Part shown: piece after piece, positions 14,292 to 48,971 of the stretch
Numbering within the stretch: position 1 is the stretch's first letter
Layout: every line of letters begins with the position of its first letter
DNA from: Gammaproteobacteria bacterium
GTDB taxonomy: Bacteria > Pseudomonadota > Gammaproteobacteria > Pseudomonadales > Azotimanducaceae
NCBI GenBank assembly: GCA_028821515.1
Contig: JAPPGA010000035.1
Coordinates: 62,001 to 126,000, forward strand
Length of the DNA: 64,000 nt
Direction of reading: 5' to 3'
Notes under the pieces: model-generated
What the model was told of the DNA's origin: nothing
What the model saw: only the letters and a program-made list of their open reading frames with translations
The model's database searches: none
Translations under genes and position numbers: made by a program

Positions 14292-15500
14292 TTGCGTAGG
14301 CGCACAGGTTATCTGATCGCCGCCGCCCTGGTTGTCGGGTCCGTTGGCGTGGCCACGCTGCTCGTGTCACTCGCGCCCGAACCTTCGACCCGACCGCCGC
14401 CATCCCAGGTGCCGTATGCGGACGTCGCGAATATCATCGCTGGCGCCGGACCGATCCCGGTGTATGGGGCAGGGTCGGTGCGGCCTAGCGTCGAAGTCGA
14501 CATCGCTCCCCAGGTCGGCGGCCGGGTCGTTTGGGTAGACCCCGGTTTCCGCAGCGGTCTTCCGGTCGAGAAAGGTCAGACCCTATTCCGCATCGAGGAG
14601 GCGGACTACGAATACCGCGTGCGGGCGGCGGAGGCTGCCCTGGCGGCGCGGCGGGTAGCGCTTCTTGAAGCTCGTGAGGACGCGGCGATAGCCCGCGCCG
14701 AGCGCTCGCGCATGGCCGACAGGCGCGCCGACGAGGCTGCGCCGGAGCCCGGTCCGTTGGCCCTGCGCATTCCTCAGTTGGAAGCAGCGGAGGCCGCGGT
14801 GAAGCGGGAAGAGGCCACCCTGGCGCAAGCCTCCCTGGAATTGTCCCGTACCCGGGTCACCGCACCGTTCGATGGCATCGTGCGCGACGAATCCGTAAAC
14901 ATGGGGCAGTTGCTGACAGCCGGGCAACCGGTCGGGAAACTGTTCTCCTCCGATGCGGTGGAAGTGGTGATCTCCCTGTCTGACACGACCGCTGCGCTGA
15001 TTCCCCGACTCTGGGAGTCGGGAGCGGACGTGAAGGCGCCTACAGCGGTTCGGGTGTTCGCGGAGTACGGCGAGGGGCGTTACGTCTGGCCGGGTTACGT
15101 GGACCGTGCCAATGCGTCCATTGATGTTGAGACGCGGACCATCGATGTGATTGTGCGGGTGCCGGACCCACTCTCGGCCGGGACGCCCGTGGGGTTCGTG
15201 GGCAGCTCCGTCTCCAACCCGCCACTCCTGGTGGGCAAGTTCGTGGAAGTGGCGATAGACGGGATCGTGCCTGAAAGCTACTTCAGGATACGCCGCGCCG
15301 CGCTCCAGGCTGATAACGAGATCTGGACGGTGGGCATCGATGGCACCATTGGCATCGTGCCCGTTGATGTCCTGCAGCGCATGGACGATGAGGTCTTCGT
15401 GACGGGCGACCTGGAAGATGGACAGGCGGCTGTCACGGGGGGCATCCGGTTCGCCACGAACGGCATGACGGTGCGTACGGGGCCTGCCGCAACCCCATGA
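14292..15500 (+). CDS. RND efflux periplasmic adaptor (membrane fusion protein)
   Basis: The TTG start at 14292 is supported by AAGGA at 14280-14284. An N-terminal membrane anchor (YLIAAALVVGSVGVATLLVSL) is followed by a lipoyl-like half-motif (SVEVDIAPQVGGRVVWV, then GLPVEKGQTLFRI), a coiled-coil hairpin, the second lipoyl half (SRTRVTAPFDGIVRDE) and beta-barrel/membrane-proximal domains, 402 residues in total. It would link an inner-membrane RND pump to an outer-membrane channel. Its probable partner is the pump at 16.7-19.9 kb, oddly encoded on the other strand beyond the methyltransferase gene. Confidence 0.9.
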   Translation: MRRRTGYLIAAALVVGSVGVATLLVSLAPEPSTRPPPSQVPYADVANIIAGAGPIPVYGAGSVRPSVEVDIAPQVGGRVVWVDPGFRSGLPVEKGQTLFRIEEADYEYRVRAAEAALAARRVALLEAREDAAIARAERSRMADRRADEAAPEPGPLALRIPQLEAAEAAVKREEATLAQASLELSRTRVTAPFDGIVRDESVNMGQLLTAGQPVGKLFSSDAVEVVISLSDTTAALIPRLWESGADVKAPTAVRVFAEYGEGRYVWPGYVDRANASIDVETRTIDVIVRVPDPLSAGTPVGFVGSSVSNPPLLVGKFVEVAIDGIVPESYFRIRRAALQADNEIWTVGIDGTIGIVPVDVLQRMDDEVFVTGDLEDGQAAVTGGIRFATNGMTVRTGPAATP

Positions 15501-15579: not shown

Positions 15580-16668
15580 ATGCTGGATAACCTGGTGGAT
15601 CTGCCCGGCCGAATCAGGCGCGCTTATCGGCGTTGGTCTGTCGACAGCCGGCTGGACCGCCTGAACAGCTGGTTCGACAGGCGCGAACCGGGAGATGCCG
15701 GTGGACAGGCCTACGACCACGCCGAAACGGTGCGGGACTACTATGACCTTTGCCATGAGTTCATGGAATTCGGTTGGGGTGAGTCCCTGCACTTCGCGCC
15801 GCTGGTCCCCGGGGAGACGCTGGAGGATGCGGTTGTGCGGCATCAGCGGCTCATGATCCGCAAGCTTGAACTGAAAGAGGGCATGCGGGTGGTCGATGTC
15901 GGTTGCGGCGTGGGTGGCCCGATGCGTCGGGTCGCCCGCGAGGCTGGCGTCACCGTTGTGGGCGTCAACAACAACGAATACCAGCTGGCCCAGGCGAAAT
16001 CGAAAAACGTCGAGGCCGGCGTGGACCACATGGCGGAGTACGTGAGATGCGACTTCATGGATATGGGCGTATTGGAAGCCAATGCCTTCGACGCCGCCTA
16101 CGCCATTGAGTCCACGTGCCATGCGCCGGACAAGCAAGGGGCATTTGCGGAGATCTACCGGCTGTTGAAGCCGGGTGCCCTGTTCTGGGGGCAGGAGATG
16201 TGCTTGACCAACGCCTTCGATCCGAGCGATCCCAATCACGTCTCGATCAAGGGAGAACTGATGCGCGGTATCGCGTTGAACCACATTGCGTCCTTTGAGG
16301 AAGTTGACCGGGCGCTTGAAGCGGTGGGATTCGAAGTGGTGGGGGCGGCGGACCTGGGCGCCAGCGGCGGGCCGACCGCGTCATGGTGGGGTCCCATGGA
16401 GAGCCGCAATGGATCGTTCGGGAATTTCATCCTCAGGACGCCATGGGGCCGCAGGGCGATGGGCATGGCCATCCGGCTTGCCGAGACTGCGAGGGTTTTC
16501 CCGCGTAATTCCCACAAGGTGATTCGGTTCATGGACCGAACTGCGGACGCCTACGTGCACGGTGCGAAGGCGGGAATCTTCACGCCGCTGTACTGCTTCC
16601 TGGCCCGCAAACCCGTTGCTCGACCCGCCAAGGCCGAGCATCCTCCAGGCGAAAACGCCACGGGATGA
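15580..16668 (+). CDS. Sterol C-24 methyltransferase homologue (ERG6/SMT-like)
   Basis: The 362-residue protein matches eukaryotic sterol 24-C-methyltransferases over its whole core. Visible blocks are FGWGESLHF (64-72), the sterol-binding region of the family; VDVGCGVGG (105-113), SAM motif I; NNNEYQLAQAK; CDFMDM; and YAIESTCHAP (174-183), an SMT signature. The family adds a methyl from S-adenosylmethionine to the C-24 side chain of sterols. Its C-terminal third (IRLAETARVFPRNSHKV) is conserved as well. It is 80 bases downstream of an RND adaptor gene in the same direction and ends exactly where the convergent RND pump gene ends. No sterol cyclase or squalene epoxidase is in the window, so the true acceptor (sterol, hopanoid or other isoprenoid) is open. 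Confidence 0.85.
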   Translation: MLDNLVDLPGRIRRAYRRWSVDSRLDRLNSWFDRREPGDAGGQAYDHAETVRDYYDLCHEFMEFGWGESLHFAPLVPGETLEDAVVRHQRLMIRKLELKEGMRVVDVGCGVGGPMRRVAREAGVTVVGVNNNEYQLAQAKSKNVEAGVDHMAEYVRCDFMDMGVLEANAFDAAYAIESTCHAPDKQGAFAEIYRLLKPGALFWGQEMCLTNAFDPSDPNHVSIKGELMRGIALNHIASFEEVDRALEAVGFEVVGAADLGASGGPTASWWGPMESRNGSFGNFILRTPWGRRAMGMAIRLAETARVFPRNSHKVIRFMDRTADAYVHGAKAGIFTPLYCFLARKPVARPAKAEHPPGENATG

Positions 16669-19600
16669 CTAGGGCGCACCCGTCGCGGTGCTTCCTGGTT
16701 CAACACCTGAGGGCAGGGTTTCGCGCGACACCAAACGCAGGCGGGCCGAATACAGTGCGGGCACCAGCAGCATGAGTATGGACGTTGTTGCAAGGATGCC
16801 GAAGCCAAGGGACGCCGCGAAGGGCAGCAGGAACTGCGCCTGGATTGCCCGTTCCAGGATAAGGGGCGTGAAGCCCAGAAACGTGGTGACCGATGTGAGC
16901 AGTATGGGTCGAAAGCGGCCCTTGGCGCCTTCGACGATCGCCTCCAGTGTGGGCCCGCGGTCCTTTATGCGCTGGTCGATGAAGTCGATCATGACCAGGG
17001 AATCGTTGACCACCACCCCGCTCAGCCCCAGAAATCCCATGATGGCCGTGGTACTGAAGGCGATCCCCATGATCAGGTGGCCGAAGATGATGCCGACGAG
17101 CCCGAACGGAATCACGGCCATGATGATGAAGGGTTTCGTGTAAGAACGCAGAGGAATTGCGAGCAACACGAAAATCATGAACATGGCCAGCACAAACCCG
17201 CGATACAGCGCGCCCAGGGATTGCAGTTGCTGCTGTTGCTCGCCGCCGAACGTGTAGGTCAGGTCGGGATCCGAGGCGGTGAGTTCGGCAAGGATCGTGT
17301 CGCTGAGCACGGCGTTGGCCTCTGCGCCGGAGATCACCCCGGGGTCCACGTTGGCGGTGACGGTTACCACGCGTTGCCCGTCCCTGCGCTTGATGGCGGG
17401 CGGCGACGTGCCGGATTTCAGCACCGCGACCTGGCTCAACGGAACTTCCGTCCCGCTCGGCGTGAGGATCAGGTAGCCTTCGATGTCGGTGATGGCATTG
17501 CGTTCGTCGGCGGGCAGGCGCGCATAGACGCGAACCTCTTCCCGGCCGCGCTGCACCCGCAGCGCTTCGACGCCAAAGAACGCTGCCCGTGACTGCCGAG
17601 CCAGGTCTTCGACCGTGAGCCCCAGCGTGTCCGCTTCCGGTCGTAGCTCAAGCTGGATCTCCCGAACCCCCGGTGTGTGATCGGAGCGCACGTCGAATAC
17701 GCCCTCTATCCCGCGCAGGCCGTTCACCACGGTGGTCGCGATCTGGACCAGGCGATCCTCGTCCGGATGCGAAAGCACGGCCTCGACGGGATTGCCCAGG
17801 TTGACGACCTGGCCGCTGAAAGAGATGCCGCGCACATGCGGCATGTGGCCCACTTCCTCGCGCCAGGCCTGCGCTACCGCTTCCGTGGAAATGTCGCGCT
17901 GTTGGGATGCGACGAGCTTGAAATCTATGGCGGCGAGGTTGGCTTCCGGATTCAGCGTGGGTTGCGGAGCGAGTCCGCCGCCCTCGACACGCGGCGGCTC
18001 GCCGACGGTCACGGTCACTCCGGACAGCAAGGGGGGCTCACCCTCGGGGCGCTCTCGTGAGAATCGTTCGATGACCCGCTTGCCGGCGGCTTCGATTTCC
18101 TTTGCGACTTCGTAGGTTCGCCGCGCAGTTGTGCCTTCCGGCATCTCCAGGCTCGCCGACACGAAATCTCCCTCTACCGTATCGGCGAACTTGGATGGGA
18201 CGATTCCCGCCGGCAGGAGCGATACGCTCAGGATGAGCAATCCGATAGCGCCCGCGATGGTTATCGCAGGTTGCTCCGTGGCGAAACGCAGCGCTCGATC
18301 CAACGGGCCGTGCAGGAACCGGTTGAGGCCCCGGTCGACCAGCCCTTGCGTGCCTGCGAAGAATCGGTCGAACGCATTCTTCGGTGTCCAGTCCGGTCCG
18401 GGCAGGTGGGACAGGTGGCTGGGGAGGATGAACAGCGATTCGAAGAGGGAGATGAGCAGCATTGCGATGATGATGATCGGCAATGCGCGCCATATCTCGC
18501 CGATGCCACCAGGTATGAAGAGAATCGGAGTAAACGCTGCGATGGAGGTGAGAACGGCGAAGATCAGCGGCACCTTGATCCTCCGCGTGCCCCGGATCGC
18601 GGCAACGACGCCGGGCGTGCCCCGCTTGCGTTCCAGGTGGATGTGCTCTGCGACCACGATGGCGTCGTCGACGATGATGCCGATGGCAAGCACGAACACC
18701 AGCAAGGAAACAGGGTTAAGCGTGATGTCAAGGACCAGCATCACCGCCAGCGCGCCGACAAACGAGGTCACCAGGCCTGCGACCACCCATACGGCGAGGC
18801 GGATTTCCATGAATAGCGTCAGCGAGACAAAGACGAGGAGCAGTCCAAGGAATCCGTTCTTGAGAAGCAGGTTGACGCGCTCCGAATAGACCTGGGACTC
18901 GTCGTTCAGGATCTCGAGGTTCACCCCCGGCGGCAGAGACGGAACGATGGCATCGGCGACGTGTTGATGCACGGCCGTGGCGACATCCATCACCTGTTCG
19001 CCCTCGACGCGATAGACCTCGACGAACGCGGCCGGCTTGTCCTGGTGCTGGACGATGAGATCGATGTCCTGAAAGACGTCGCCCACGTTGGCGATGTCGC
19101 CCAGGGTCACGGATGTTCCGTCGTTGCGGCTGAGTACAACGACCTGCTCGAAATCGTGCTGATCGTAGCGCTGTCCTATCGTGCGGACGCGCACCTGGGC
19201 ATCGCGCGTGTCGATGCTCCCGGCGGACAGGTCGAGAGAACTGCGGCGAACCGCCTCCGCGATGTCCGAAAGCGTCAGCCCGAGGGCGCGCAGTTCGCGC
19301 AGGGGCACGTCGATCGAGATCTCGTAATTCCGCACGCCGGTGGTTTCGACCAGTGACACGGCGGGAAGCGAAGCGAGGTCGTCTTCGATCTGGTAGGCCA
19401 ACTCCTTCAGCGACCGCTCCGAGATGTCGCCGTACACAACGAGGCGCATGATGCTCTGACGGCTGGTCATTTCCCTGATTTCGGGACGCTCGGCACCGGC
19501 CGGAAACGATTGAATCCGCGCAACTGCGGATTCGATCTCGGCGATAGCCTCGCTGATGTCCGTGCCGGACTTCAATTCGATGCGAACCGATGCGATTCCC

Positions 19601-19884
19601 GGAGCGGCGAGGGACTTCACGGCAATCACGTTGTCGAGGGAACTCACCTGTTCTTCCACTCTCGCGATGATCGACTCCTCTACCTCGTCCGGGCTGGCGC
19701 CGGGATAGGTTATGGAGACTTCGATATGGTTGAACTTGATCGCGGGCCACGACTCGCGCTCCAGCCCGGTGAGCGACACCAGACCCGCGGCCAGGATTGC
19801 TAACATGAAGAGATTCGCCGCAACCCGGTTGCTCGCCATGTAGGCGACTGGACCGCGAGGCTCTCCTCCGTACACGTCGTCCAT
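16669..19884 (-). CDS. RND (AcrB/MexF-like) efflux permease
   Basis: A full-length 1071-residue RND pump: N-terminal TM1, a large periplasmic loop beginning SITYPGASPDEVEESI, TM2-6 with the LAIGIIVDDAIVVAEHI motif in TM4, the second periplasmic loop, and TM7-12 with GLSGVVVNDSLVMIDFI. These are proton-relay and substrate-loop features of hydrophobe/amphiphile efflux pumps rather than the CusA metal type. It is tail-to-tail with the SMT gene with no intervening base (TGA then CTAG). Its adaptor is likely the upstream gene on the other strand, and the NodT-type channel at 47.5-49 kb could complete the system. Confidence 0.93.
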   Translation of the reverse strand: MDDVYGGEPRGPVAYMASNRVAANLFMLAILAAGLVSLTGLERESWPAIKFNHIEVSITYPGASPDEVEESIIARVEEQVSSLDNVIAVKSLAAPGIASVRIELKSGTDISEAIAEIESAVARIQSFPAGAERPEIREMTSRQSIMRLVVYGDISERSLKELAYQIEDDLASLPAVSLVETTGVRNYEISIDVPLRELRALGLTLSDIAEAVRRSSLDLSAGSIDTRDAQVRVRTIGQRYDQHDFEQVVVLSRNDGTSVTLGDIANVGDVFQDIDLIVQHQDKPAAFVEVYRVEGEQVMDVATAVHQHVADAIVPSLPPGVNLEILNDESQVYSERVNLLLKNGFLGLLLVFVSLTLFMEIRLAVWVVAGLVTSFVGALAVMLVLDITLNPVSLLVFVLAIGIIVDDAIVVAEHIHLERKRGTPGVVAAIRGTRRIKVPLIFAVLTSIAAFTPILFIPGGIGEIWRALPIIIIAMLLISLFESLFILPSHLSHLPGPDWTPKNAFDRFFAGTQGLVDRGLNRFLHGPLDRALRFATEQPAITIAGAIGLLILSVSLLPAGIVPSKFADTVEGDFVSASLEMPEGTTARRTYEVAKEIEAAGKRVIERFSRERPEGEPPLLSGVTVTVGEPPRVEGGGLAPQPTLNPEANLAAIDFKLVASQQRDISTEAVAQAWREEVGHMPHVRGISFSGQVVNLGNPVEAVLSHPDEDRLVQIATTVVNGLRGIEGVFDVRSDHTPGVREIQLELRPEADTLGLTVEDLARQSRAAFFGVEALRVQRGREEVRVYARLPADERNAITDIEGYLILTPSGTEVPLSQVAVLKSGTSPPAIKRRDGQRVVTVTANVDPGVISGAEANAVLSDTILAELTASDPDLTYTFGGEQQQQLQSLGALYRGFVLAMFMIFVLLAIPLRSYTKPFIIMAVIPFGLVGIIFGHLIMGIAFSTTAIMGFLGLSGVVVNDSLVMIDFIDQRIKDRGPTLEAIVEGAKGRFRPILLTSVTTFLGFTPLILERAIQAQFLLPFAASLGFGILATTSILMLLVPALYSARLRLVSRETLPSGVEPGSTATGAP

Positions 19885-20023: not shown

Positions 20024-20256
20024 CCCTAGCGCCATGAAACCCGCCGGCCCTTCGGGCGCGTCGTGTTCCATCCCAGCCCAAGCCCGCCTGGGGCCATGCG
20101 CCTTGATCGGCACTATGTGCCGTTCTGCGCGCACGGCCCTAGCGCCATGAAACCCGCCGGCCCTTCGGGCGCGTCGTGTTTCATCCCAGCCCAAGCCCCG
20201 CCTAGGGCCATGCGCCTTGATCGGCACTATGTGCCGTTCTGCGCGCACGGCCCTAG
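20024..20256 (+). repeat. Two tandem copies of a palindromic intergenic repeat (MITE/REP-like)
   Basis: Two direct copies (about 20024-20136 and 20137-20250), each opening with CTAGCGCCATGAAA and followed by CTAG. Each contains GCCC-TTC-GGGC and CGGCAC-TAT-GTGCCG hairpins. They belong to the same family as 23070-23209 and 29913-30052 but are shorter. The distal CTAG (20253-20256) includes the stop codon of the GPP34-P450 gene on the minus strand. Confidence 0.85.
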
Positions 20257-22268
20257 ACGGGGTTCCTGACTTCTGCCACGCGGAACTTCAGCTTCTTGTC
20301 GGGCGCGGCGGTCGGGAACGGGTTGATTCCGATCCGGTAGTCCTCGGGCACGATCTCCAGCCTGACGTGGTGGGCGATCATCATCAGGTTCACGACCATC
20401 TGAAGCTCCAGCCACCGGTGCCCCAGGCAAGTGTGCGTGCCGAGTCCATACGGCGCATAGGCTCCGGGGGCCATGTGCTCTTCCCGGTCAGGCAGGTAGC
20501 GATCGATATCGAACTTGAGCGGATCCTTGTACAGTTTCGCCGAGTAGTGTGGTGCGGTGTGACAGACAAGCAGCCGCGTTTGCGGAGGTATCTGGAAGCC
20601 GTCCACCACGCACTGGTTCATCGCCGTTCTCAACTGCCAGGGGATCACGGGATACAGGCGTTCGGACTCGAGAAAAATCCGATGCGTTACGTCCACGCTT
20701 TCGCGGCTGAATGCCGCAGCCTGCGGTTCGTGCCCGTTTCCGAATAACGCGTCTGCCTCCCGCCGGACCGCCTCGTGCAGACCCGGGTGGCGAACCATCG
20801 CGTAGGTGGCGAAGCCGAGCGAGCTGCCGAGATAGAGGCTCGCGACCATCGCCGCGACGAACGGAAACACGATATCCGTTTCTGGCAGGAACTGCGGGTC
20901 GGTCCGATGCAATTCGAGAATATAGTCGGCGATGTCCGGTGGCTTGCCGTCCCTTTGCGCCGGCGTGTGCGACTCGTGGATCGCCTGGTGAAGCCTCGCC
21001 ACATGCTTCCGTCCCCGCTTCATCTTCGGTGTCGACATCAGGAACTTCGGCAGGACGCCCTGCACATACGTGATGAGGGCGCGATGCTGGTAGGCCAACA
21101 GTTCGTCGGAATAGTGGCTGATATCCACGCCCATGGTCAGGTGGGAGACCTGGCTGCTGACGGTGCTCTGGAACATCCTGGTCGCCCCGAACACGTCGCC
21201 TTCCTTCCACTGGCCGATGCCGTCCTTTCCGAGGCTCAAGAGTTCCGGCAGTCTTTGCGCGAGCAGGGCGCGGGAATATCCGCCCCGCAGGGACTTTCGC
21301 ATCTTGTGGTGTTCGGCGCCATCCATGCCGGGCATGGTGCGAGAAGCTCCGAAGGCCCCTGCGAAATTCTCGATGTAGTCCTTTGACCGCAGGTAGAACC
21401 GCCCGTGCTTGTTGACCCATTGGTTGGCTTCGGTACCCATTATGGCGACGAGTCGTTGTCCGCCCATCCGAAAGGGGATCTCGACCACGGAGCCGTACTT
21501 CTCGTGGATTCCCCACATCGCTTTGGGGATGTTGCCCGTGCGGAAGTCGCGGTGTCGCAGAATGTCGATGATCCGGAGTTTTGGGATGGGCTTTGTCGGA
21601 AGGGTCCGGCGCGTCAGGGGCCTGTAGGCGCTTTCCCTGACCGCTTCCGATACGGTGCGCCCCACCAGGTCCAGTTTCGAGAGCGTCTCGATGCGCTCGA
21701 TGTTCTCCTGGTAGTCCTCCTCCGACAGGAGGAGCTTGAAGCCGTCGCATGTATGCATGAGGCCGATCAGGATCGCGTCGCGAGGATCCGGAATCTCGTC
21801 GTTCAGTATCGTGGCGAGGATCCTCGCCTTGGCCTCCAACCGCGTGGTGCCATTGGTGGACGGGTAATTGCCCGAACGGGACACCTGGCGGGACAGCGTC
21901 CAGAATCCGCCGGTCTCGTGGTCGAGTATCCCCTTCTCTACCAGTCGATCAAGCGCCACGGTGACGATGTCTTCGGAGCGGGCGGCACTGCGCTCGATCC
22001 AGTATTGTGGGGATGATGTCTCCTTCGCCTCGCTGATCTCCAGCAGCGTCGGGTCAAGCAACTCGTCGCCGGTTGGAGTGGCATCGACGAGATACAACGC
22101 TTGCAGATCGGTGTCGATTCGATGCTCGAGTGCGAGGTCGGCGACGACTGTACCCGCCATTACGCAGGCGAAATTCCAGCCGGGGACCATTTCCAGGTAC
22201 CCGCTCTCCTCGTTGAGCATCAGCAGGATCAGCTCTTCCGTGAGGCGCATGGATGAAGAGTCCGGCAT
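20253..22268 (-). CDS. GPP34 (GOLPH3)-cytochrome P450 fusion protein
   Basis: The start at 22268 gives 671 residues. Residues ~1-220 are a GPP34/Vps74-type domain (LTEELILLML, GTVVADLALEHRIDTD, VEKGILDHE), the fold that in eukaryotes binds phosphoinositides on Golgi membranes; a stand-alone relative is encoded at 40.2 kb. Residues ~230-671 form a cytochrome P450: a helix-C-like GMDGAEHHKMRKSLRGGYSR, ExxR at ~534-537 (ESER), and the heme-ligand Cys at ~614 in YGLGTHTCLGHRW. The helix-I segment (~471-483, VAAMVASLYLGSS) lacks the usual acid-Thr pair. The general look recalls CYP51/CYP7-like enzymes; a lipid or sterol substrate held at a membrane is inferred, supported by the SMT gene nearby. 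No redox partner is adjacent. Confidence 0.88.
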   Translation of the reverse strand: MPDSSSMRLTEELILLMLNEESGYLEMVPGWNFACVMAGTVVADLALEHRIDTDLQALYLVDATPTGDELLDPTLLEISEAKETSSPQYWIERSAARSEDIVTVALDRLVEKGILDHETGGFWTLSRQVSRSGNYPSTNGTTRLEAKARILATILNDEIPDPRDAILIGLMHTCDGFKLLLSEEDYQENIERIETLSKLDLVGRTVSEAVRESAYRPLTRRTLPTKPIPKLRIIDILRHRDFRTGNIPKAMWGIHEKYGSVVEIPFRMGGQRLVAIMGTEANQWVNKHGRFYLRSKDYIENFAGAFGASRTMPGMDGAEHHKMRKSLRGGYSRALLAQRLPELLSLGKDGIGQWKEGDVFGATRMFQSTVSSQVSHLTMGVDISHYSDELLAYQHRALITYVQGVLPKFLMSTPKMKRGRKHVARLHQAIHESHTPAQRDGKPPDIADYILELHRTDPQFLPETDIVFPFVAAMVASLYLGSSLGFATYAMVRHPGLHEAVRREADALFGNGHEPQAAAFSRESVDVTHRIFLESERLYPVIPWQLRTAMNQCVVDGFQIPPQTRLLVCHTAPHYSAKLYKDPLKFDIDRYLPDREEHMAPGAYAPYGLGTHTCLGHRWLELQMVVNLMMIAHHVRLEIVPEDYRIGINPFPTAAPDKKLKFRVAEVRNPV

Positions 22269-23783: not shown

Positions 23784-26090
23784 ATGAGCGCGGCGGTCGA
23801 GTTTTTCGACTTTCTGTGGTCGTCGTTTCTTCTGCTGGCCCCGATGCTGCTGTTGGGGCTCTTCCTCTCGGGAGTGATCCATGTCTTCATTCCGAGACAG
23901 ACGATTCTTCGCTGGTTCCGCGAAGACAGTCTGAAGTCCGTGGCGACCAGTGCGGGCATTGGCGTGCCGATGCCGCTGTGCAGTTGCTCGGTAGTGCCAG
24001 TGGTTGCGGAGATGCGGCGGAAAGGCGCTTCGCGGTCATCCTGTATGTCGTTCCTCATCACGGCGCCGGAAACCGGGGCAGACTCGATACTCGTGACCAA
24101 CGCGTTTTTTGGCCCGTTGGTAGCGATCGTGCGCCCCGTCATCAGCTTCGTGACAGCGGTGGTCGCCGGAATCTTCTGCATCGGGTTGATGCGGGATTCC
24201 TCGGAGGCGGACCGGCGCGAGAAGGCGGAAAACGGGGATGGCGATGCACACGACCACGGTGGCCACGATCACGATCACGAGCACGAGCACGAAGGCCACG
24301 ATCACGATCACGGTACGCACACCTCGCTCTTTCCGGGGCGCGACGACTGCTACGTGAGCTTCGCCCAGTTGCGTGGTTTCGCGGGGCGATGGCTGCGCGG
24401 GCTGACCGCCGCCGCGGGCCGGTGGCGACATGCCTCGTGGCTGAAGCCCGACTTCTACAAGGACCGTCCGACTGCCACGTCCGAGGAGGAGGCGCCCCTC
24501 GGTTCGGACGACCAGGAGCGGGGTCCGGACTTCCCCACCGTCGTGCGGCACGTCCTGCGATACGGCTTCATCGAGATTGCCGACGACATCCTCTTCGCGC
24601 TGCTGGTCGGCATTGCGCTCGGCGGGGTTCTTTACCTGGCCATCCCGTCGGACCTGATGGCGAGCGAGCATGCTCGCTGGCTGTCCTATCCGGTAATGGT
24701 GCTCATCGGTGTTCCACTGTACATATGTGCCTCGGCGAGTACGCCGATCGCGGCCGCACTTGTAGCAAAGGGCGTCAGCCCGGGCGCGGCCCTGGTGTTC
24801 CTGATGACGGGGCCTGCGACGAACACCGGTACGATCGCCATCATCGTGAGCCAGTTCGGCACCCGGTTCGCGTCCGTATACGTCGTCGGAGTCATCGCGG
24901 TGACGGTAGTCCTGGGTGTGCTGATCGACGTCCTGCTGCTCGCGGCGGGGGTCTCGATAGCGGTGAATCTGGAGGCTTCCGACTCACCGGCGATTCTGGC
25001 GCTCCAGTGGGGCGGCGCCATCGGGCTGGCCGCGCTGATCGTGTGGCGGTTCAGGGCCGGCGCGTTGAAGAGCGGCTACGACGATCTGATGCTCAACCTG
25101 CGCCCGGTCGGTCGACGTATTGCGGCGCTATGGGTCCGGCTGACGCGAGGGCGCGGACTGGCGGGGGCGGTCGTGCCCAACACGCCTGCGGGCGCGTCAC
25201 TTCTGGTTGTTGCGCTCGCGTTGTTTCTCGGTTCCGGTTTTACCAGGGTCCCGCCGGGGTCGGTCGGTTACGGCCTCTTGTTCGGGGAGGTTCGCTGGCG
25301 CGATCTCGGGCCGGGGCTGCACTACCTGGCACCGCGTCCCCTGGTAAGGGTCGACCACTGGCCGGTGCGCGAAGTGAAGTCGATCATGTCCGACAAGGCG
25401 CACGAATTCGTCTCCGGCGACCTGAATCTGATGTCGTTCACGGTGGACGTGCAGTACCGGGTGGCGGATCCGTACGTCTACCATTACCGGACGACGGATC
25501 CCGAAGGTGTGATCTCGGCGTTCATCTCCGGCCACATGCGGTCGTTCATCTCGGCACGGCGTCTTGAGCCGTTGCTCAACGTTCACCGCGGACCGCTTGA
25601 GGATCACATCCGCCTGTTGTTCGATGAGCCGGAGTCCGGGCGTGATCCGGTGCTCAACTCGATCGAACTCGTGAAGGCGAACCTGGTGGATGTCAGTCCG
25701 ACAACAGAGACGGCGAGCGCGTTCCGCGAGGTGTCGAGTGCGCAGGAGGACCGCGAGCGGATCATCGTGAACGCGCAGCGCTTCCTGGTGGCACTGACGC
25801 CCCAGGCCTACGGCAACGCCTTCTACGAGGTCGAACAGGCGCATGGACAGGCGTTCCGCAAGACGGCCGGCGCCAGGGCGGAGGCCGAGGCGATCCTGGC
25901 GGTGGCCGTCGCGACCCGTACCGCACCGGGAGTGCTGCGCAACATGCTGTGGCGGGAAAAGCTGGAGTCGGCGCTCTCGGGTAACGCCAAGGTGATCGTC
26001 CCCAACGAGGAGAGCCTGGACAAGGTGGCGCTTTGGAAGCGCAGGTCGGGCAACGCCGGCAACGGCCATCACGGAGGAAACGGACGATGA
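23784..26090 (+). CDS. Cu/Zn-type permease (ArsP_1/SO_0444-like) fused to a C-terminal SPFH domain
   Basis: This 768-residue protein joins two families. Residues ~1-430 are a permease with the family motif PLCSCSVVPV (~63-72), a ~30-residue His/Asp/Glu-rich linker (~152-181) that probably binds Zn or Cu, and a second membrane half with ASTPIAAALVAKG and TGPATNTGTI. A further membrane helix (~472-490) leads into a periplasmic or cytosolic SPFH/band-7 domain (~491-740) resembling HflK: GSVGYGLLFGEV, GPGLHYLAPRPL, MSFTVDVQYRVADP, and a helical tail rich in Ala/Glu. Metal efflux is inferred from the permease family and the His linker. It is the first gene of an overlapping operon with two more SPFH genes. 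Confidence 0.88.
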   Translation: MSAAVEFFDFLWSSFLLLAPMLLLGLFLSGVIHVFIPRQTILRWFREDSLKSVATSAGIGVPMPLCSCSVVPVVAEMRRKGASRSSCMSFLITAPETGADSILVTNAFFGPLVAIVRPVISFVTAVVAGIFCIGLMRDSSEADRREKAENGDGDAHDHGGHDHDHEHEHEGHDHDHGTHTSLFPGRDDCYVSFAQLRGFAGRWLRGLTAAAGRWRHASWLKPDFYKDRPTATSEEEAPLGSDDQERGPDFPTVVRHVLRYGFIEIADDILFALLVGIALGGVLYLAIPSDLMASEHARWLSYPVMVLIGVPLYICASASTPIAAALVAKGVSPGAALVFLMTGPATNTGTIAIIVSQFGTRFASVYVVGVIAVTVVLGVLIDVLLLAAGVSIAVNLEASDSPAILALQWGGAIGLAALIVWRFRAGALKSGYDDLMLNLRPVGRRIAALWVRLTRGRGLAGAVVPNTPAGASLLVVALALFLGSGFTRVPPGSVGYGLLFGEVRWRDLGPGLHYLAPRPLVRVDHWPVREVKSIMSDKAHEFVSGDLNLMSFTVDVQYRVADPYVYHYRTTDPEGVISAFISGHMRSFISARRLEPLLNVHRGPLEDHIRLLFDEPESGRDPVLNSIELVKANLVDVSPTTETASAFREVSSAQEDRERIIVNAQRFLVALTPQAYGNAFYEVEQAHGQAFRKTAGARAEAEAILAVAVATRTAPGVLRNMLWREKLESALSGNAKVIVPNEESLDKVALWKRRSGNAGNGHHGGNGR

Positions 26091-27001
26091 CACGGACCGG
26101 CAAGGCAATCTCGTGGGCGATCGGTGCAACAGTTGCTCTGGCCGTCGCCTATGACAGCTTTTATATCGTGAAGGAGACCGAGCAAGGTGTGCTGACGCAC
26201 TTTGGCCGAATCGCACCGCCGGTGCGGCAACCCGGCTTCCATCCCAAGTGGCCGCGTCCCGTTTCCAAGGTGTACAAGGTCGACCGTCGCATGCAGACGA
26301 TGACGGACCTTCCCCAGGAACTCATCACGGAAGACCAGAAGAGCGTCCTGGTCGACGGCTACCTGCTATGGCGGGTGGTGGACCCGATCCTGTTCGTCGA
26401 GGCAATCCGAACGGACGAGAACGCGCTTGAGAAACTGCGCGACGTCTACCTGTCGAGCGTGGGCGTCGTCGTCAGCAACAAGGCCCGCGACGCATTCATC
26501 GGTCTCGGCCTGGAGCACGAAGAGTTCGACCAGGCGGCCGACCAGATTCTCGCGCGGGTGGCACCGGTGGCGCGGGACAACTACGGCATCGAGGTCATGC
26601 GTGCCGGGGTGGTCGAGTACACCCTTCCCGCCGAGAATCGGCCGAGTGTCATTCAGCGGATGGTGTCGGAACGGGCACGGATAGCGTCGCGGTATCGCGC
26701 GGAAGGGGAAGAAGTCGCGATGCGGATCGAGGCGGTGGCGGTCAACGAACACGAGAAGCTGGTGGCCGAAGCGCACGCGGAGGCTACTGTGATTCTCGGC
26801 AATGCCGAGGCCGAGGCGATGGCACTTCTGGGAGAAGCGTACCGCGAGGACCCCGAGTTCTACGAGTTCATCCGGGCCCTGGACAGCTACGACCTCATCA
26901 TCGACGAGAACACTACGCTGATGCTGCCCGCCGACAGCGAACTGTTCCGGTATCTGGACAGCCGCGCCATTCCAGATCGCGAGCCGGAAGTGAACGAGTG
27001 A
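26087..27001 (+). CDS. SPFH/band 7 protein, HflC-like
   Basis: ATG 26087 overlaps the previous stop (ATGA) and follows GGAGG. The 304-residue product has one N-terminal membrane helix, then the SPFH start SFYIVKETEQGVLTHFGR, the core LVDGYLLWRVVDPILF, and the HflC-type helical region SERARIASRYRAEGEEVAMRI with EAYREDPEFYEFIRALDSY, which strongly recalls HflC. HflK/HflC normally form a membrane cage around FtsH. Here the gene is embedded with metal transport genes rather than the usual hfq-hflX context, so a dedicated scaffold is more likely. Confidence 0.9.
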   Translation: MTRTGKAISWAIGATVALAVAYDSFYIVKETEQGVLTHFGRIAPPVRQPGFHPKWPRPVSKVYKVDRRMQTMTDLPQELITEDQKSVLVDGYLLWRVVDPILFVEAIRTDENALEKLRDVYLSSVGVVVSNKARDAFIGLGLEHEEFDQAADQILARVAPVARDNYGIEVMRAGVVEYTLPAENRPSVIQRMVSERARIASRYRAEGEEVAMRIEAVAVNEHEKLVAEAHAEATVILGNAEAEAMALLGEAYREDPEFYEFIRALDSYDLIIDENTTLMLPADSELFRYLDSRAIPDREPEVNE

Positions 27002-28293
27002 CGGAAGAGGCGCTACCGCGAAGTACCCGCGCAATCTACGCGGGGTTCGACTTCGTGGGCTTTCGCTGGCGCCTTTTGGCGGTGTTGACCCTCCTGTTCG
27101 GTCTCGCGGCTCTCGCTGCGAGCGGCTTGTACATCGTCAAGAAGGAGGAACAGGCCGTCCTCACGCGGTTCGGAAAAGTGGTGGACGCCGAGGTCGGCCC
27201 CGGTGTGCGCTACCGGATTCCGGTGATCGAAGCCGCCCATATAAGGCCGGTGAAGCGCATTGCCCGTCTGGGTGTGGCGAGCAAGAGCGGCGACACGGTC
27301 AACTTCACGATCCTGTCGGGAGACACCAACCTGCTTGAGATCGAAGTCGTGGTGCAGTATCTGATCGGGAATCTGCGCGACTATCTGTTCGCGGCGGCCG
27401 ATCCCGTGAAGCTGATGGAGATGGTAGTTCGCGAGGGACTCGTCGACGCGGTGGGGAGCAACTTCATCGACCTGATCTTCACGAGCAACCGAAACATCAT
27501 CGAAGAGCACCTGTTCGAAGACGTCGCCGACCGGGTCGCGGCGTACGGCATCGGCGTAGAGGTCGCAGCGCTTACGATCGTGGACGTGCGACCGATTGAC
27601 GAGACCGTCGCGGCGTTCCGGGATGTCAACGACGCGATCGCTGAACGGACGCAGGCCGAGAGTGAGGCGAACCGCCGCGCGGAACGCTTCCTGGCGCGCA
27701 CCCGCGGCCAGGGCGAGTCGTTGGTTCTCAATGCGCAGGCGCGGGCAAACGAGCGCATCGGTCAGGCGAGGAGCGCGGCGGACGCCTTCCTGGCGTTGCT
27801 GGCGGAGTTCCGGAGCGAGCCGAACCAGGTGGCCGTCACCCGCTATTGGCAGCGCATGCGGACCATATTCTCCCAGGCAAGCCTCGCGGCTGTGAATCCC
27901 GGCGACGCCTCGACCATCGACATCAACATGATCGATGGCGTCGGGGCGCCGCCGATCGGTCTCGGTGTGGTTGGCGCGCCGCCGGCTGCAGGCGATGACG
28001 GCAGTGGGCGGGCCTTGCGCGCGTCGACGGCGCCGCGGGACCTGCATGTGGGGACCGACGGCGAAATGGACCTGTTGACGATGGACGGACGGTTCCACGA
28101 CCGCCGGACGGAGAGGGACCACATGGGTCCCGCATCGCCTCGGTCCCTGATCTTCGACTCGCCGTCGATCTTCGCGCACGGCCATGTCCAGCGCACGGGT
28201 CCCGTGGTGGAACGGCAGCCGGAGCAGCAACCGCTCGTGGAGACCATTCCCGAGGAAACCCCCGAAGCCGATGCGACGAAAAAGCATGAGTAG
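26998..28293 (+). CDS. SPFH/band 7 protein, HflK-like, with long C-terminal tail
   Basis: GTG 26998 overlaps the previous stop by 4 bases. A membrane helix (LLAVLTLLFGLAALAASGLY) precedes the SPFH domain: VKKEEQAVLTRFGKV, GPGVRYRIPVIEA, NLLEIEVVVQYLIGNL, then the helical segment AESEANRRAERFLARTRGQ. After ~residue 300 a ~130-residue Pro/Gly/Asp-rich tail follows with no known domain. It would pair with the HflC-like neighbour and with the SPFH end of the permease fusion to form a hetero-oligomeric ring. Confidence 0.88.
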   Translation: MTEEALPRSTRAIYAGFDFVGFRWRLLAVLTLLFGLAALAASGLYIVKKEEQAVLTRFGKVVDAEVGPGVRYRIPVIEAAHIRPVKRIARLGVASKSGDTVNFTILSGDTNLLEIEVVVQYLIGNLRDYLFAAADPVKLMEMVVREGLVDAVGSNFIDLIFTSNRNIIEEHLFEDVADRVAAYGIGVEVAALTIVDVRPIDETVAAFRDVNDAIAERTQAESEANRRAERFLARTRGQGESLVLNAQARANERIGQARSAADAFLALLAEFRSEPNQVAVTRYWQRMRTIFSQASLAAVNPGDASTIDINMIDGVGAPPIGLGVVGAPPAAGDDGSGRALRASTAPRDLHVGTDGEMDLLTMDGRFHDRRTERDHMGPASPRSLIFDSPSIFAHGHVQRTGPVVERQPEQQPLVETIPEETPEADATKKHE

Positions 28294-39198: not shown

Positions 39199-40163
39199 TG
39201 TTCCGTCACCAAGATAACGTTTGCACTTGAGTTACTGTGCGAGCGGAGCGCTGTCGAGGGGTCGCCGCATCTGGCGAGGCCAAGGCACGCGACCCAGAGA
39301 TTTCGCACCTCAACCGTGAAAGCCGCGCCAACAGCGGCGATATCGTGCTTATGAGTAGCTCCACATGAGCAGTTCTTGGAGAACTCGCCGTTGCTCTTGA
39401 TCGCGACCGGACGGTGGCAGCGTTTCTGGCAACACCGAGGTCTGGCGTCCGGGAGAACGGTGGCGCTCCACTGGGCGCGCAGCAATTCGAGGTCCATAAG
39501 TTCTTCTGTTCAGGTTGGCGACGCGGAGTGCGTCGATGCCCGAGTGGGGGGGCATGCGCGCGCAGGCCGGTCACCGCGCGTGAGCGAGGTCGGAGCGCCA
39601 GCGAAGAACCCGTGCGGGTTAACTGGAGAGTATCCGTGTTGTCAAGGAGTGGCAGCCGGAGCGCTGTGGCTCACGCCGCGTCAAGCCGCTACGCGGCTCC
39701 TCCACTTCGTTCCGGCCCTGCGTGTGACCCATGCCAGACCGTACGGCGGGAAGGATGTCGAGAGGAGACCGTTGCTCCTTCAGTACGTTTCCGGTGACGT
39801 CCACCACCACCAAATATCAGCCCCACCGGCATGAACCCCAACTCCCGCGCGGAAGCGCACCCGCAGTAGCATCTCTTCCAACCGGGTCCATGATATGTTC
39901 GTGCCGGTGGCTTGGTCGGCGTGAGGGATGCCCGGGATGCTTGCCGTCCTGGATGACGCAGTCATTCGGGGTCAAGGAGACGCCTTGACACATAGAGTAT
40001 CGCCGAACAGAACGACGGTCCTATGGATCTGGGCGGTCTGTTCGATCGCCTTCTGCGGCCCGTGTTCACCGAGGATCCCTTCCAGGCGCCGCTCGTCGGT
40101 TCCTGGCCGTCGCGAATGCATGTGAGGCGACGCGCGCGAATGAAGGATCAGAATCTGTTCGCT
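39199..40163. other. Nearly 1 kb without a recognisable gene
   Basis: Short open frames on both strands show no known motif, no consistent start signals and odd composition (Cys/Arg-rich on one strand). One minus-strand frame near 39.8-39.9 kb reads NISWTRLEEMLLRVRF without recognisable homology. The segment may be decayed coding or mobile DNA. No tRNA, CRISPR or clear IS ends were seen. Confidence 0.5.
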
Positions 40164-40820
40164 TCAACTGAACCACCTGGTCTCCTCTCCGCGCGTCGCG
40201 TCCTGCAATTCGCGAATCGTCGCGGCGACCGACTGGCCAATCAGATCCAACTTGACGACCTGCGCGATCCTGGGCTCGAGCGCGACCAGTTCGCGTTGGT
40301 GGATCATGCCGCGCCACAGATCGCAGGCATCGGCCAGGCAGATGATCGCGATGTCCTTCGGGTCGGGGATCTTGTCGCTCAGCAGGACGTCCATGATCCG
40401 GCGCTTGACCTCGCGCAACGGACGTCCGTCCACCGTAGGGTAACGGCGCGAACCCAGCACCCAAAAAAACCGATCATCCTGGCGCCTGAGAATGCCGCGG
40501 GATACCAATCGGTCGAGGAGGCGCGGCTGAACGGAATTGAACTCGGCCGCGAACTCCCGGACCCAGTGACCGGTCGGCTGTGTCTCTTCCTCCCCGACGA
40601 CGCGTGCCAGCACCGGGTCCAGGACGGGCTCTCCGAGCGGCGTGGAGTCGATAATGTGAAGTTGATGGAGATCGGTGTCGATGCGGTCGCTGAAGGCTAG
40701 ATCCATCAGAAGTGCGCCGCTGACGGCGTTGCGCAGCGAGTGGACGGGGAGCCTGCGATTGACCTTGCCGGTTTCGTCGTCGAGGACCAGGAGCAGCACT
40801 TCCTCGGCAATGGTCAGCAT
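40164..40820 (-). CDS. GPP34 (GOLPH3/Vps74)-family protein
   Basis: A 218-residue stand-alone version of the domain fused to the P450 at 20-22 kb: MLTIAEEVLLLVLDDETGKV, ALLMDLAFSDRIDTDLHQLH, DSTPLGEPVLDPVL, LVSRGILRRQDDRFF and the KIPDPKDIAIICLADACD segment all align by eye with the fusion. Strong Shine-Dalgarno (GGGGGGAGG) before ATG 40820. Bacterial GPP34 proteins have no settled role; eukaryotic members bind PI4P and retain membrane enzymes. It is divergent from a PiT-like permease, 42 bases apart. Confidence 0.85.
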   Translation of the reverse strand: MLTIAEEVLLLVLDDETGKVNRRLPVHSLRNAVSGALLMDLAFSDRIDTDLHQLHIIDSTPLGEPVLDPVLARVVGEEETQPTGHWVREFAAEFNSVQPRLLDRLVSRGILRRQDDRFFWVLGSRRYPTVDGRPLREVKRRIMDVLLSDKIPDPKDIAIICLADACDLWRGMIHQRELVALEPRIAQVVKLDLIGQSVAATIRELQDATRGEETRWFS

Positions 40821-43386: not shown

Positions 43387-43393
43387 CCGAGTA

Positions 43394-45694: not shown

Positions 45695-46536
45695 GCCGCG
45701 TCCGCGCTTCGTTTCGGTCGGCGCAATTCCTGACCCCGATCCTGTTCCTTGGCCTGGGTGGCCTGCCCGCCTCGGCGTCGGAAGGCGCGAGCCCCGAGGA
45801 GGTCGGCCTGGCGCTCGCGCGCGAAGCCCGCGAAGCCAAGCTGGGGTTCGGCAATTTCACCGCGGCCCAGACGATGGTCCTGCGCAACAAGCAGGGGCGG
45901 GAAAGCCGGCGCGAACTCCGCGTGAAGGTGCTGGAAGTCGAAGGCGACGGGGACAAGAGCATGTTCGTCTTCGATCAGCCGCGCGATGTCGAGGGAACCG
46001 CCTTGCTCATCTATTCGCACAAGGAAGCGGCGGACGAACAATGGCTCTATCTGCCCGCGCTCAAGCGTGTCAAGCGCATCAGTTCAGCCAGCCGTTCCGG
46101 TTCCTTCATGGGCAGCGAATTCGCCTATGAGGACATGAGCGCGCAGGAGGTGGAGAAGTTCACCTACCGGTATCTGCGCGACGAGCAATGTGGTGATGGT
46201 GGTGATGGTGGCGATGGCGAAGCACTGACGTGCGCGGTGATGGAGCGCTTTCCCGTCGACAAGCGGTCGGGATATCTCCGGCAAGTGGTCTGGCAGGACC
46301 GGGATGGGCAACGCCTGTGGAAGGTCGAGTATTACGACCGCAAGAACGCTCACCTGAAAACGCTCACCGTGCGGGACTACCAGATCTACCTGGACAAGTA
46401 CTGGCACGCGGGCGAGATGGCCATGGTCAACCATCTCACGGGCAAGAGCACCGTATTGACCTGGTCGGACTACCAGTTCGGAAACGACCTCGATGCCGGC
46501 GACTTCAGCCAGACGGGGCTCAGGCGGGTTCGCTGA
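45691..46536 (+). CDS. Outer-membrane lipoprotein-sorting (LolA-like) protein, MMPL partner
   Basis: A 281-residue exported protein (leader ending LPASAS) with the fold features of the LolA/VioE-like outer-membrane lipoprotein-sorting family: AREAREAKLGFGNFTAAQTM, FVFDQPRDVEGTALLIYSHK and QWLYLPALKRVKRIS. In many genomes it follows an MMPL pump and probably accepts hydrophobic cargo in the periplasm. A GGTGAT-rich microrepeat at about 46193-46216 adds a Gly/Asp run. It is translationally coupled to the pump gene. Confidence 0.88.
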   Translation: MSRVRASFRSAQFLTPILFLGLGGLPASASEGASPEEVGLALAREAREAKLGFGNFTAAQTMVLRNKQGRESRRELRVKVLEVEGDGDKSMFVFDQPRDVEGTALLIYSHKEAADEQWLYLPALKRVKRISSASRSGSFMGSEFAYEDMSAQEVEKFTYRYLRDEQCGDGGDGGDGEALTCAVMERFPVDKRSGYLRQVVWQDRDGQRLWKVEYYDRKNAHLKTLTVRDYQIYLDKYWHAGEMAMVNHLTGKSTVLTWSDYQFGNDLDAGDFSQTGLRRVR

Positions 46537-46617: not shown

Positions 46618-47484
46618 TCAGAGCAGGCCGTGGCGCACGGCAAGCCAGATTTTTCGCGTTTGCTTCAGACGAACCGGTTCGTCGATTCTCTTCCACCCGC
46701 GAGCCCGCAGTTTCTCAAGCGTCTCTCGATACCCCGCCATCATGACGGCAGCGGGCCGCATGCGCCGGGACTGGAGTTCCTTCATGAGTTTGTCGGCCTC
46801 GTCGTAGTGGGAGCGGGCAAGTTCCGCCAGTTCGGCGCAGACATCCGCAAATCGGGGATGCACGAATACCTCTTCGAGCGACCTGGTCGCAATACCGTGT
46901 TTGGCTAGCAGGTCGAGCGGCACGTAGAGTCGCCGCAGACCCGCATCTTCCTTCAGGTCGCGCAGGATGTTCGTCAACTGGAACGCATTTCCGAGCGCAC
47001 GGGCGATGCGCGGCCCCGGCTCGCGGGGCACGCCGAAGGCATGGATGGACAATAAGCCGACCGCGCCCGCGACATTGCGGCAGTAACGCAGCAGGTCCTC
47101 CAGTGTGGTCATCCGCACGGTGGGCGACGCATCTGTCTCCATGCCGTCGATGACCGCGAAGAATTCGTCCTGCGGCAGGTTGAAGCGCCGAACCGGGTCC
47201 AGCAGCGCCCGGGTTGTCGGGCGCGTGGGTTCGCCGGCATAGAGTCGACGGATTTCCTCCCGCCAACCGGTAAGCGCCCGTCTCTTCTCGGCGACCTCTC
47301 CGGGTTCGTCCGCGATGTCGTCCACCTCCCGGCAGAACGCGTATATGGCAAACATCGCGCGCCTGCGTTCCCTTGGCAGGATACGCATGCCCCAAAGGAA
47401 CGACGAACTGGACTGCGCGACAATCCGGTTGACGTGAAGCAGTGGATCCGGTCCGTTCCCGGACGGATCGAGGGCGGCTTTCAC
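46618..47484 (-). CDS. hpnD: Presqualene diphosphate synthase (HpnD-type)
   Basis: A 288-residue trans-isoprenyl diphosphate synthase (squalene/phytoene synthase family). The block SSFLWGMRILPRERRRAMF followed by FCREVDDIADEPG (first Asp-rich motif) is characteristic of HpnD, and LTNILRDLKEDAGLRRLYVP contains the second Asp-rich motif. It condenses two farnesyl diphosphates to presqualene diphosphate on the way to squalene and hopanoids; hpnC and hpnE are not in the window. The first base of its ATG overlaps the end of the outer-membrane channel gene upstream on the same strand, so they are probably co-transcribed. Confidence 0.88.
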   Translation of the reverse strand: MKAALDPSGNGPDPLLHVNRIVAQSSSSFLWGMRILPRERRRAMFAIYAFCREVDDIADEPGEVAEKRRALTGWREEIRRLYAGEPTRPTTRALLDPVRRFNLPQDEFFAVIDGMETDASPTVRMTTLEDLLRYCRNVAGAVGLLSIHAFGVPREPGPRIARALGNAFQLTNILRDLKEDAGLRRLYVPLDLLAKHGIATRSLEEVFVHPRFADVCAELAELARSHYDEADKLMKELQSRRMRPAAVMMAGYRETLEKLRARGWKRIDEPVRLKQTRKIWLAVRHGLL

Positions 47485-48971
47485 GGCGCTACGCGCACGG
47501 GCGAGGGGGGGACCGGAGCGGATGTCCAGTCACCACCCACGGCACGGTGCAGGGCGAGTCGCGCGTATCCGAGTTCACGTTCCCCAGCGGCCCTGGCGGA
47601 TTTTGCGCCGAGCGACATCTGCGATGCGGCCAGGAAGATTCCATAGTCATCCAGCCCGGATGCGTACCTGTCGTGCCGCAGGTCGGCCTCGGCCTGGGCC
47701 GCTTCCTCCAGCGCGGTCAGGATTTCAACGCGGCGGCGGCTGGCCGAGAGGCCGGCAATCGCGCTCTCCACTTCGTGGACTGCGGTCAGGACAGACCGTC
47801 CGAACCTGGCGACCGCCTCGTCGAGCGTGGCTTCAGCAACCTCGACATTGCCTCGCAGCCGTCCTCGTTGCAGCACCGGCGCGAGCAGGTTCGCACTCAG
47901 ATTGCGGAACCACTGGTCTGGATCAAACCAATCGGCGGACTCCGAGCTTTGCAGGCCGATCGAACCGGACAGTGACAGTGAAGGCAATAGTTCAGCCCGG
48001 CGGGCCCCCAGTGAGTATCGGGCTGCCTCGACCCTTTGCCGCGCAGCCCTGACATCAGGTCTCTGGTTCAGGAGATCAGCCGGAACTTGCGCGGAACCGG
48101 ACCCAAGTGACGCCGCAGTCGCGAGTACATCCGGGAGCACTTCTTCGAGTTCCTCCCGGTAACCCCCGACCAGCACCCAGAGTCGTGACTCGGCGTTGGC
48201 CAGCAGGGCGTCGAGTTGGGGCAACTCCGCCTCGGCGTCGCCGAGTTGCCGTCGCGCGGCGTAGACGTCCTGTGCTTCCACCAGCCCGCCGTCATAGCGC
48301 GTCTCCATCAGCCACTTCCACTCCTTCAGGAGTTGGACGATCTGTCCTGCCAGCCTTCGCTGATGCCTGAGATCCACAACCTCGAAATACGTGCCGACCG
48401 TGCCTGCTACCGCGCCGATGCGAGCGGCATGCAAGTCCGATTCCGCGGCCAGGCTCTCTGCCCTGGCTGACCGGGCCACGTTGCGGTCCCGAAGCCAGAA
48501 GTCGGCCTCGTAGGCGAATTCCGCCCCCACGGTGTAGGTGGTCAGATCGAGTCGGTCCGGTAATGCGAAACCGAATGCCTCAAAGACATCGGAACCGAGG
48601 CCGAGCTGGTCCAGTTGCGCACCAAGGCCGGCGCTGGTGGGCATGCGGACCTCACTCGGGCCAACCGCCGCCTGCATCGCGGGCAATCGGACGGCCCTCG
48701 CGATGCGGGCTCTGGCCCTCGCCTGATCGACCCGGGCGACCGCTTGCTCAAGGTCGAAATTGGAACCCAGCGCGGTTTCCACCAGCCTGTTGAGCACAGG
48801 GTCGTCGAAGGCCTGCCACCATTCGACCTGTTCGCGCATGGTGGGTGGATCGTGTTCGGTCAACGCGTCTTCAATTTCGGCGATCTGTTCGGGAACCCGC
48901 GGACTCGGCGCCAGGGAACAGGATGCGAGCAGCATGGGCACCGCAAGCAAGATGATCAACAGATACGGCAA
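47481..48971 (-). CDS. Outer-membrane efflux lipoprotein (NodT/OprM family)
   Basis: A 496-residue RND outer-membrane factor. A lipoprotein leader (MPYLLIILLAVPMLLASC) gives Cys18 as the lipidation site. The two repeated OEP domains carry WWQAFDDPVLNRLVETAL, SNFDLEQAVARVDQARA and LLNQRPDVRAARQRVEAA. It makes the TolC-like trimeric duct. The only uncoupled RND pump in the window is at 16.7-19.9 kb with an adaptor at 14.3 kb. A relic of the same C-terminus is at 22.5 kb. Its stop overlaps hpnD. Confidence 0.92.
   Translation of the reverse strand: MPYLLIILLAVPMLLASCSLAPSPRVPEQIAEIEDALTEHDPPTMREQVEWWQAFDDPVLNRLVETALGSNFDLEQAVARVDQARARARIARAVRLPAMQAAVGPSEVRMPTSAGLGAQLDQLGLGSDVFEAFGFALPDRLDLTTYTVGAEFAYEADFWLRDRNVARSARAESLAAESDLHAARIGAVAGTVGTYFEVVDLRHQRRLAGQIVQLLKEWKWLMETRYDGGLVEAQDVYAARRQLGDAEAELPQLDALLANAESRLWVLVGGYREELEEVLPDVLATAASLGSGSAQVPADLLNQRPDVRAARQRVEAARYSLGARRAELLPSLSLSGSIGLQSSESADWFDPDQWFRNLSANLLAPVLQRGRLRGNVEVAEATLDEAVARFGRSVLTAVHEVESAIAGLSASRRRVEILTALEEAAQAEADLRHDRYASGLDDYGIFLAASQMSLGAKSARAAGERELGYARLALHRAVGGDWTSAPVPPSPVRVAP

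Follow-up and report, generated by a model that had tools for sequence, protein, structure and literature searches.

A GPP34 domain and a cytochrome P450 in one reading frame

The window, a stretch of 64,000 nucleotides from a gammaproteobacterial contig, belongs to a 4.04-Mb draft genome of 86 contigs that is rated 100% complete (G000). A single unbroken frame on its minus strand runs from an ATG at 22268 to a stop at 20253 and encodes 671 residues (Table 1); the frame can be extended in-frame to 22379, and close homologs such as P0003 are likewise 671 amino acids long. We searched the full protein against Pfam and found both GPP34 (PF05719, 114.5 bits against a gathering score of 29.1) and p450 (PF00067, 103.8 bits against a cut-off of 22.8) above their cut-offs, which, with the unbroken frame, bore out the earlier note's description of a GPP34 domain fused to a P450. 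The ExxR and heme-Cys motifs that it had read in the C-terminal part held up as well: E534, R537 and C614, together with His612, were invariant in all 126 aligned rows. The predicted model of the whole protein bears a P450 fold in the heme domain and a GOLPH3/Vps74-like fold in the GPP34 domain. The stand-alone GPP34 protein noted near 40.2 kb is real but lies on the minus strand (ATG at 40820, to 40164), and the plus-strand open reading frame at 40023-40700 gave no match in a Pfam search. The genome has five GPP34 matches. A 114-base unit, present in 2.1 copies with 97% matches at 20024-20256 of the window, ends at the fusion's stop codon.

Table 1. Features of the fusion gene and its neighbors in the window
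Feature	Position	Strand	Evidence
GPP34-P450 fusion gene, 671 aa	20253..22268	-	Open frame; Pfam GPP34 8.5e-33, p450 1.2e-29
GPP34 domain, residues 9-212	21633..22244	-	Pfam
Cytochrome P450 domain, residues 244-645	20334..21539	-	Pfam; whole-protein predicted model matches P450 structures
I-helix segment ASLYLG, residues 476-481; acid position Tyr, Thr position Leu	20826..20843	-	
ExxR motif, residues 534-537	20658..20669	-	E and R invariant, 126/126 rows
Heme-binding loop YGLGTHTCLG, residues 607-616, Cys614	20421..20450	-	Cys614 invariant, 126/126 rows
RND pump permease (AcrB type), next downstream of the fusion on the same strand	16669..19884	-	Pfam ACR_tran 5.2e-160
Sterol methyltransferase (SMT) homolog	15580..16668	+	Pfam Sterol_MT_C (PF08498) 55.3 bits, cut-off 21.7
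RND periplasmic adaptor (HlyD/MFP)	14292..15500	+	TIGR01730 145.9 bits, cut-off 94.9
Outer-membrane efflux channel (OEP)	47481..48971	-	Pfam OEP 1.1e-37; TIGR01845 above cut-off

Neither a Rieske nor a flavoprotein gene lies beside the fusion in the window, and the genome's single KshA_C match is on another contig. The motif MEFGWGESLHF of the methyltransferase resembles what we take to be the SMT motif of yeast Erg6; a literature search for that motif found nothing. At a locus of the same genus (L006), a homolog of the window's OEP channel is on the fusion's own contig, and a block homologous to 42.2-49.0 kb of the window adjoins the fusion, from which it lies about 20 kb away in the window. 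In the window, this block includes the OEP channel and, in a row on the plus strand at 42175-46536, genes for a homolog of MPAB/Lcp-type oxygenases, an MMPL transporter that gave a sterol-sensing match and a LolA-like protein. Also on the plus strand, at 23784-28293, the window encodes a 768-aa fusion of an ArsP-type permease with a Band 7/SPFH domain, and two further Band 7 genes come after it.

The fusion is rare and patchy across several phyla

A protein search scored 778 relatives of the fusion at E ≤ 1e-20, and the best 120 of these all carried PF05719 and PF00067, with 66 to 95% identity and 97 to 100% query coverage. Named contigs of Gammaproteobacteria, Acidobacteria/Acidobacteriota, Terriglobia, Candidatus Aminicenantes and Rhodothermales bear the fusion, which the earlier note had suggested looking for in other genomes. 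Because the listed homologs share both domains and contigs of several phyla carry the fusion, it is not an assembly artefact, and we ruled out an assembly join or sequencing error as its origin. Names among the listed homologs add Bryobacterales and Rhodospirillaceae, and the fusion of a genome of the same genus (G003) is 93% identical to that of the window.

At E ≤ 1e-60, 5 of the 390 genomes from the window's order had the fusion, as did 17 of 396 from the phylum of an Acidobacteriota-type genome and 12 of 394 from the phylum of a Rhodothermales genome. In a quick tree, in which the long rows L045 and L046 meet, the window's gammaproteobacterial rows sit among those of the Acidobacteriota-type phylum sample (support 90-91), a placement that suggests horizontal transfer. 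The prefixes COS and RHO in the isolate names match the sponges Coscinoderma matthewsi and Rhopaloeides odorabile, which are among those sampled according to part of PMC8163846; going by these names, the window probably comes from a sponge symbiont.

Several related arrangements were observed. L046:8986-10296 (minus strand) encodes a stand-alone P450 without GPP34 that is 32% identical to the P450 half of the fusion. Two differing fusions (43% and 47% identity to the window's) stand on opposite strands within one module, with a flavoprotein gene between them, at L101:7322-12711 and L102:7243-12686. L047:3502-4674 (minus) and L051:5974-7152 (plus) each encode a GPP34 protein roughly 390 aa long, with no Pfam match in its second half; a cytochrome c3/c7-type gene adjoins the former, and homologous genes adjoin the latter.

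Altered residues in the P450 active site and in the GPP34 pocket

The fusions fell into two groups that differ at the P450 active site. In the first group, the I-helix has lost its acid-Thr pair, carries Tyr at the acid position and is one residue shorter (39/39 rows each), with a Thr directly after that Tyr retained in 6 of the 39. The second group has a D/E/H-Thr pair in 12/12 rows and a normal P450 active site. As read from the alignment, the first-group P450 lacks the acid-alcohol pair that classically marks an O2-activating monooxygenase, and the loss of the pair in every row leaves in doubt whether it is an oxygenase in the ordinary sense. With the usual proton relay missing, oxygen activation would be substrate assisted rather than classical. 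In CYP107A1, a hydroxyl of the substrate takes the role of the I-helix Thr.

The head was altered as well. According to part of PMC4414131, the phosphatidylinositol 4-phosphate (PI4P) pocket of GOLPH3 is formed by W81, R90, R171 and R174. In the first group, W81 was kept in 39/39 rows, R90 was replaced by Ala or Val and R171 by Asp or Glu, and R174 was never Arg (for R171 and R174, the positions come from extending the helix without gaps). With W81 the sole survivor of the four, the analogy to PI4P binding drawn in the earlier note is unsupported, and on these replaced arginines we rejected PI4P as the likely ligand of the head.

A recurrent gene module surrounds first-group fusions

Recurrent neighbors of first-group fusions were genes for an RND pump, an adaptor, an outer-membrane channel, a KshA_C Rieske oxygenase, an SMT and an amine-oxidase-like flavoprotein. 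Before counting neighbors and I-helix rows, we removed L114 (the same locus as L010), L040 (the same as L006) and L046 (a P450 without GPP34). The fetched loci did not include the first-group fusions of G534, G543, G585 and G639 or the second-group fusions of G534, G543, G552, G585, G631 and G639, of which G552 and G631 were still tested for PF13243. Within 8 kb of the fusion, the 37 first-group loci held an RND gene, the most frequent neighbor, in 31 cases, a Rieske gene in 22, an adaptor in 17, a flavoprotein in 14, an SMT in 13 and a channel in 10; a Rieske and/or SMT gene was present in 28, both in 7 and neither in 9. Since many loci end at contig ends, these counts are minima. Each of the six genes was absent within 8 kb from all 12 second-group loci (Fisher P = 3.2e-6, indicative only because the loci include near relatives and were gathered by similarity to the window's protein). 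The linkage to SMT that the earlier note had thought worth looking for is present both in the window, through its PF08498 gene, and in part of the first-group loci.

Further linkage is compatible with at least four contigs (143804, 134209, 304493 and 151514 bases) that appear in both the fusion and the SMT lists. L122 and L123 have no module seed gene near the fusion, and the RND genes of L044 and L057-L059 are only 23-28% identical to that of the window. L041, a candidate Rieske-linked locus, fell in the Rieske cluster yet gave no Rieske hit, its genome has no KshA_C match, and it was left uncounted.

The prominence of the RND gene, together with the missing acid-Thr pair and the shortened I-helix, would suit a P450 domain that is no enzyme in the usual sense but binds and carries sterols, or works as an isomerase or dehydratase, and passes a lipid to the pump. 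We consider this unlikely: the invariance of the heme Cys, the ExxR motif and His612 points to retained heme chemistry, and the Thr kept after the Tyr in some rows also argues against it.

Sterols, their source and the triterpenoid context

A profile search of the draft genome G000 found neither squalene epoxidase (PF08491) nor triterpene cyclase (PF13243), and we rejected de novo synthesis of sterols or hopanoids by the window's organism on that ground. As this genome carries an SMT without detected sterol synthesis, the sterol would have to come from a host, probably a sponge. Among the 37 carrier genomes, PF08491 went undetected in 27, PF13243 in 14 (8/14 in one batch and 6/23 in the other) and both in 13, including G000, G003 and G005, the last a single contig; in G043, G441 and G467, which count as having PF13243, the match is weak, partial and scores about 26 bits. 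Symbiont SMTs methylate desmosterol and act on 24-methylenecholesterol in vitro, according to sections of Brown et al. (PMC10070321).

Other carriers do possess synthesis genes. In G014, a squalene epoxidase-cyclase protein adjoins a P450 and an ERG4/ERG24 reductase. Pfam matches to squalene epoxidase and squalene/oxidosqualene cyclase lie in one frame at L129:1378-4731 (minus strand) and L130:968-4462 (plus strand), of 1117 and 1164 aa, and P450 and ERG4/ERG24 reductase genes adjoin the frame of L129. Epoxidase and cyclase matches also lie within one long frame in G004, G164, G270, G344 and G1198. A literature search for squalene epoxidase-cyclase fusions with the term sponge found none.

The nearest solved structure to the Rieske protein is 3-ketosteroid 9alpha-hydroxylase (KshA; 1.3e-24), as expected if the module degraded steroids, with the Rieske protein acting as KshA, the P450 as a hydroxylase starting side-chain catabolism and the pump serving uptake or tolerance. 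HsaC-like proteins scored above 200 bits in 8 of the 37 carriers, some of which may have aerobic 9,10-seco degradation by the look of these sequences, and sections of PMC5790920 describe, for sponge metagenomes, organisms that degrade steroids and a KshA cluster confined to sponges. All of the HsaC-like proteins were nevertheless below the TIGR03213 cut-off, which none of the 37 genomes passed, and G000, G003 and G005 had no HsaC-like match above 47 bits (the best in G000 was a partial TIGR03213 match of 42 bits), so this route is not the common denominator. Moreover, an SMT, present in 13 of the 37 loci, builds side chains. Degradation seems to us unlikely, and slightly less probable than the carrier or isomerase role.

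Second-group fusions occurred in another setting. In G506 and G525 (L110 and L111), the fusion adjoins a squalene-hopene cyclase gene of 661-662 aa; the L110 protein scored 602 bits with TIGR01507 (cut-off 431), and a sulfotransferase gene follows the fusion there. G552 and G631 have a strong PF13243 match 24 bases from the fusion match. Thus PF13243 was beside the fusion in these 4 of 12 second-group genomes searched for it and not in G042, G467, G270, G344, G1018, G1069, G1089 and G1198; further neighbors include acyltransferases and class-III aminotransferases. The link to polycyclic triterpenoids hence reaches beyond the sterol module, although in the second group it was seen in one phylum sample only. 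These results agree with the sterol or hopanoid context supposed in the earlier note, the SMT/Rieske module standing around the first group and squalene-hopene cyclase beside part of the second. Least probable of the alternatives, and in our judgment improbable, is a substrate that is some other lipid or natural product, with PF08498 and KshA_C marking only distant relatives of sterol enzymes: it accords with the undetected sterol synthesis in G000, with the nearest solved structures of the methyltransferase (other small-molecule methyltransferases) and of the flavoprotein (LkcE, 6.5e-23) and with the three NCBIfam P450 models matched, two of them terpene oxygenases far below their cut-offs, but it is opposed by the PF08498 match, above cut-off here and found in all 120 listed of the methyltransferase's 3084 homologs, by KshA as the nearest structure to the Rieske protein and by the cyclase adjoining part of the second group.

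Proposed function and meaning

The reading we prefer, at about an even chance of being right, is that the fusion is a membrane-docked heme enzyme, likely modifying host-supplied sterols, and that the neighboring RND pump probably moves the products. The GPP34 domain would be a peripheral-membrane head on the inner membrane, presenting membrane-dissolved sterol to the heme domain, and the substrate would be a sterol of the kind alkylated by the neighboring methyltransferase. The heme domain would then modify this sterol, with a substrate hydroxyl possibly replacing the Thr. Further changes to the sterol would be made by the SMT and, in other genomes, by the Rieske protein and the flavoprotein, and the pump would export the product, presumably outward. 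Second-group proteins, with their normal active site, may oxidize lipids, hopanoid-type or other, in the conventional way.

A broader proposal is possible, though on balance doubtful: that a GPP34-tethered P450 without ordinary oxygen activation, the SMT, the KshA-type Rieske oxygenase and the RND pump together make up a module shared horizontally among sponge symbionts of several phyla, a sizeable share of which cannot make sterols, and that these symbionts use it to convert host sterols to unusual ones, among them possible precursors of the "sponge" sterane biomarkers. If true, bacterial GPP34 would gain a biochemical setting, that of polycyclic triterpenoids; the known P450 architectures would be joined by one in which the I-helix is altered and the head is of a membrane-protein type; and there would be a second enzyme, after the SMTs, through which bacteria could shape sponge sterols. 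This would bear on whether 24-isopropylcholestane marks animals, a debate outlined in part of PMC10070321.

Comparison with known systems

A literature search for a GPP34-P450 fusion found no paper. The fusion differs from GOLPH3 and Vps74 in its replaced R90, R171 and R174, its attached P450 and its bacterial origin. SCO4440 of Streptomyces is likewise a bacterial GPP34 protein, but it stands alone without a P450 and was studied for peptidoglycan and wall-deficient cells; the same source, in the part concerned, states that GOLPH3-like proteins were previously undescribed in prokaryotes (PMC12402492, 2025).

Among P450s, CYP51s, including the Methylococcus CYP51-ferredoxin fusion, share the P450 fold, ExxR, heme Cys and sterol setting and gave the best full-span matches among PDB sequences (~1e-15). 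They differ in having about 19% identity to the fusion, an I-helix Thr where the fusion has Leu and a ferredoxin in place of GPP34. Identity to CYP46A1 (cholesterol 24-hydroxylase) is 17%. Structural comparison scores were nearly tied (CYP46A1 37.1, CYP51-ferredoxin 36.6 and BM3 34-35), and we abandoned the attempt to assign the P450 to a family on structural grounds.

The SMT clusters of sponge symbionts also hold bacterial SMTs, and one active SMT came from a metagenome-assembled genome without other sterol genes; many of these clusters, however, also contain further genes for sterol synthesis, which went undetected in the window's genome (sections of PMC10070321, the main text of which does not contain the word P450). 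KshA-type Rieske oxygenases are likewise present in sponge bacteria, where the sections concerned treat them as steroid degradation and describe no GPP34-P450 linkage (PMC5790920). Fused P450s and SMT clusters in bacteria were known before; the GPP34 partner, the altered I-helix and the conserved gene module set this case apart from them.
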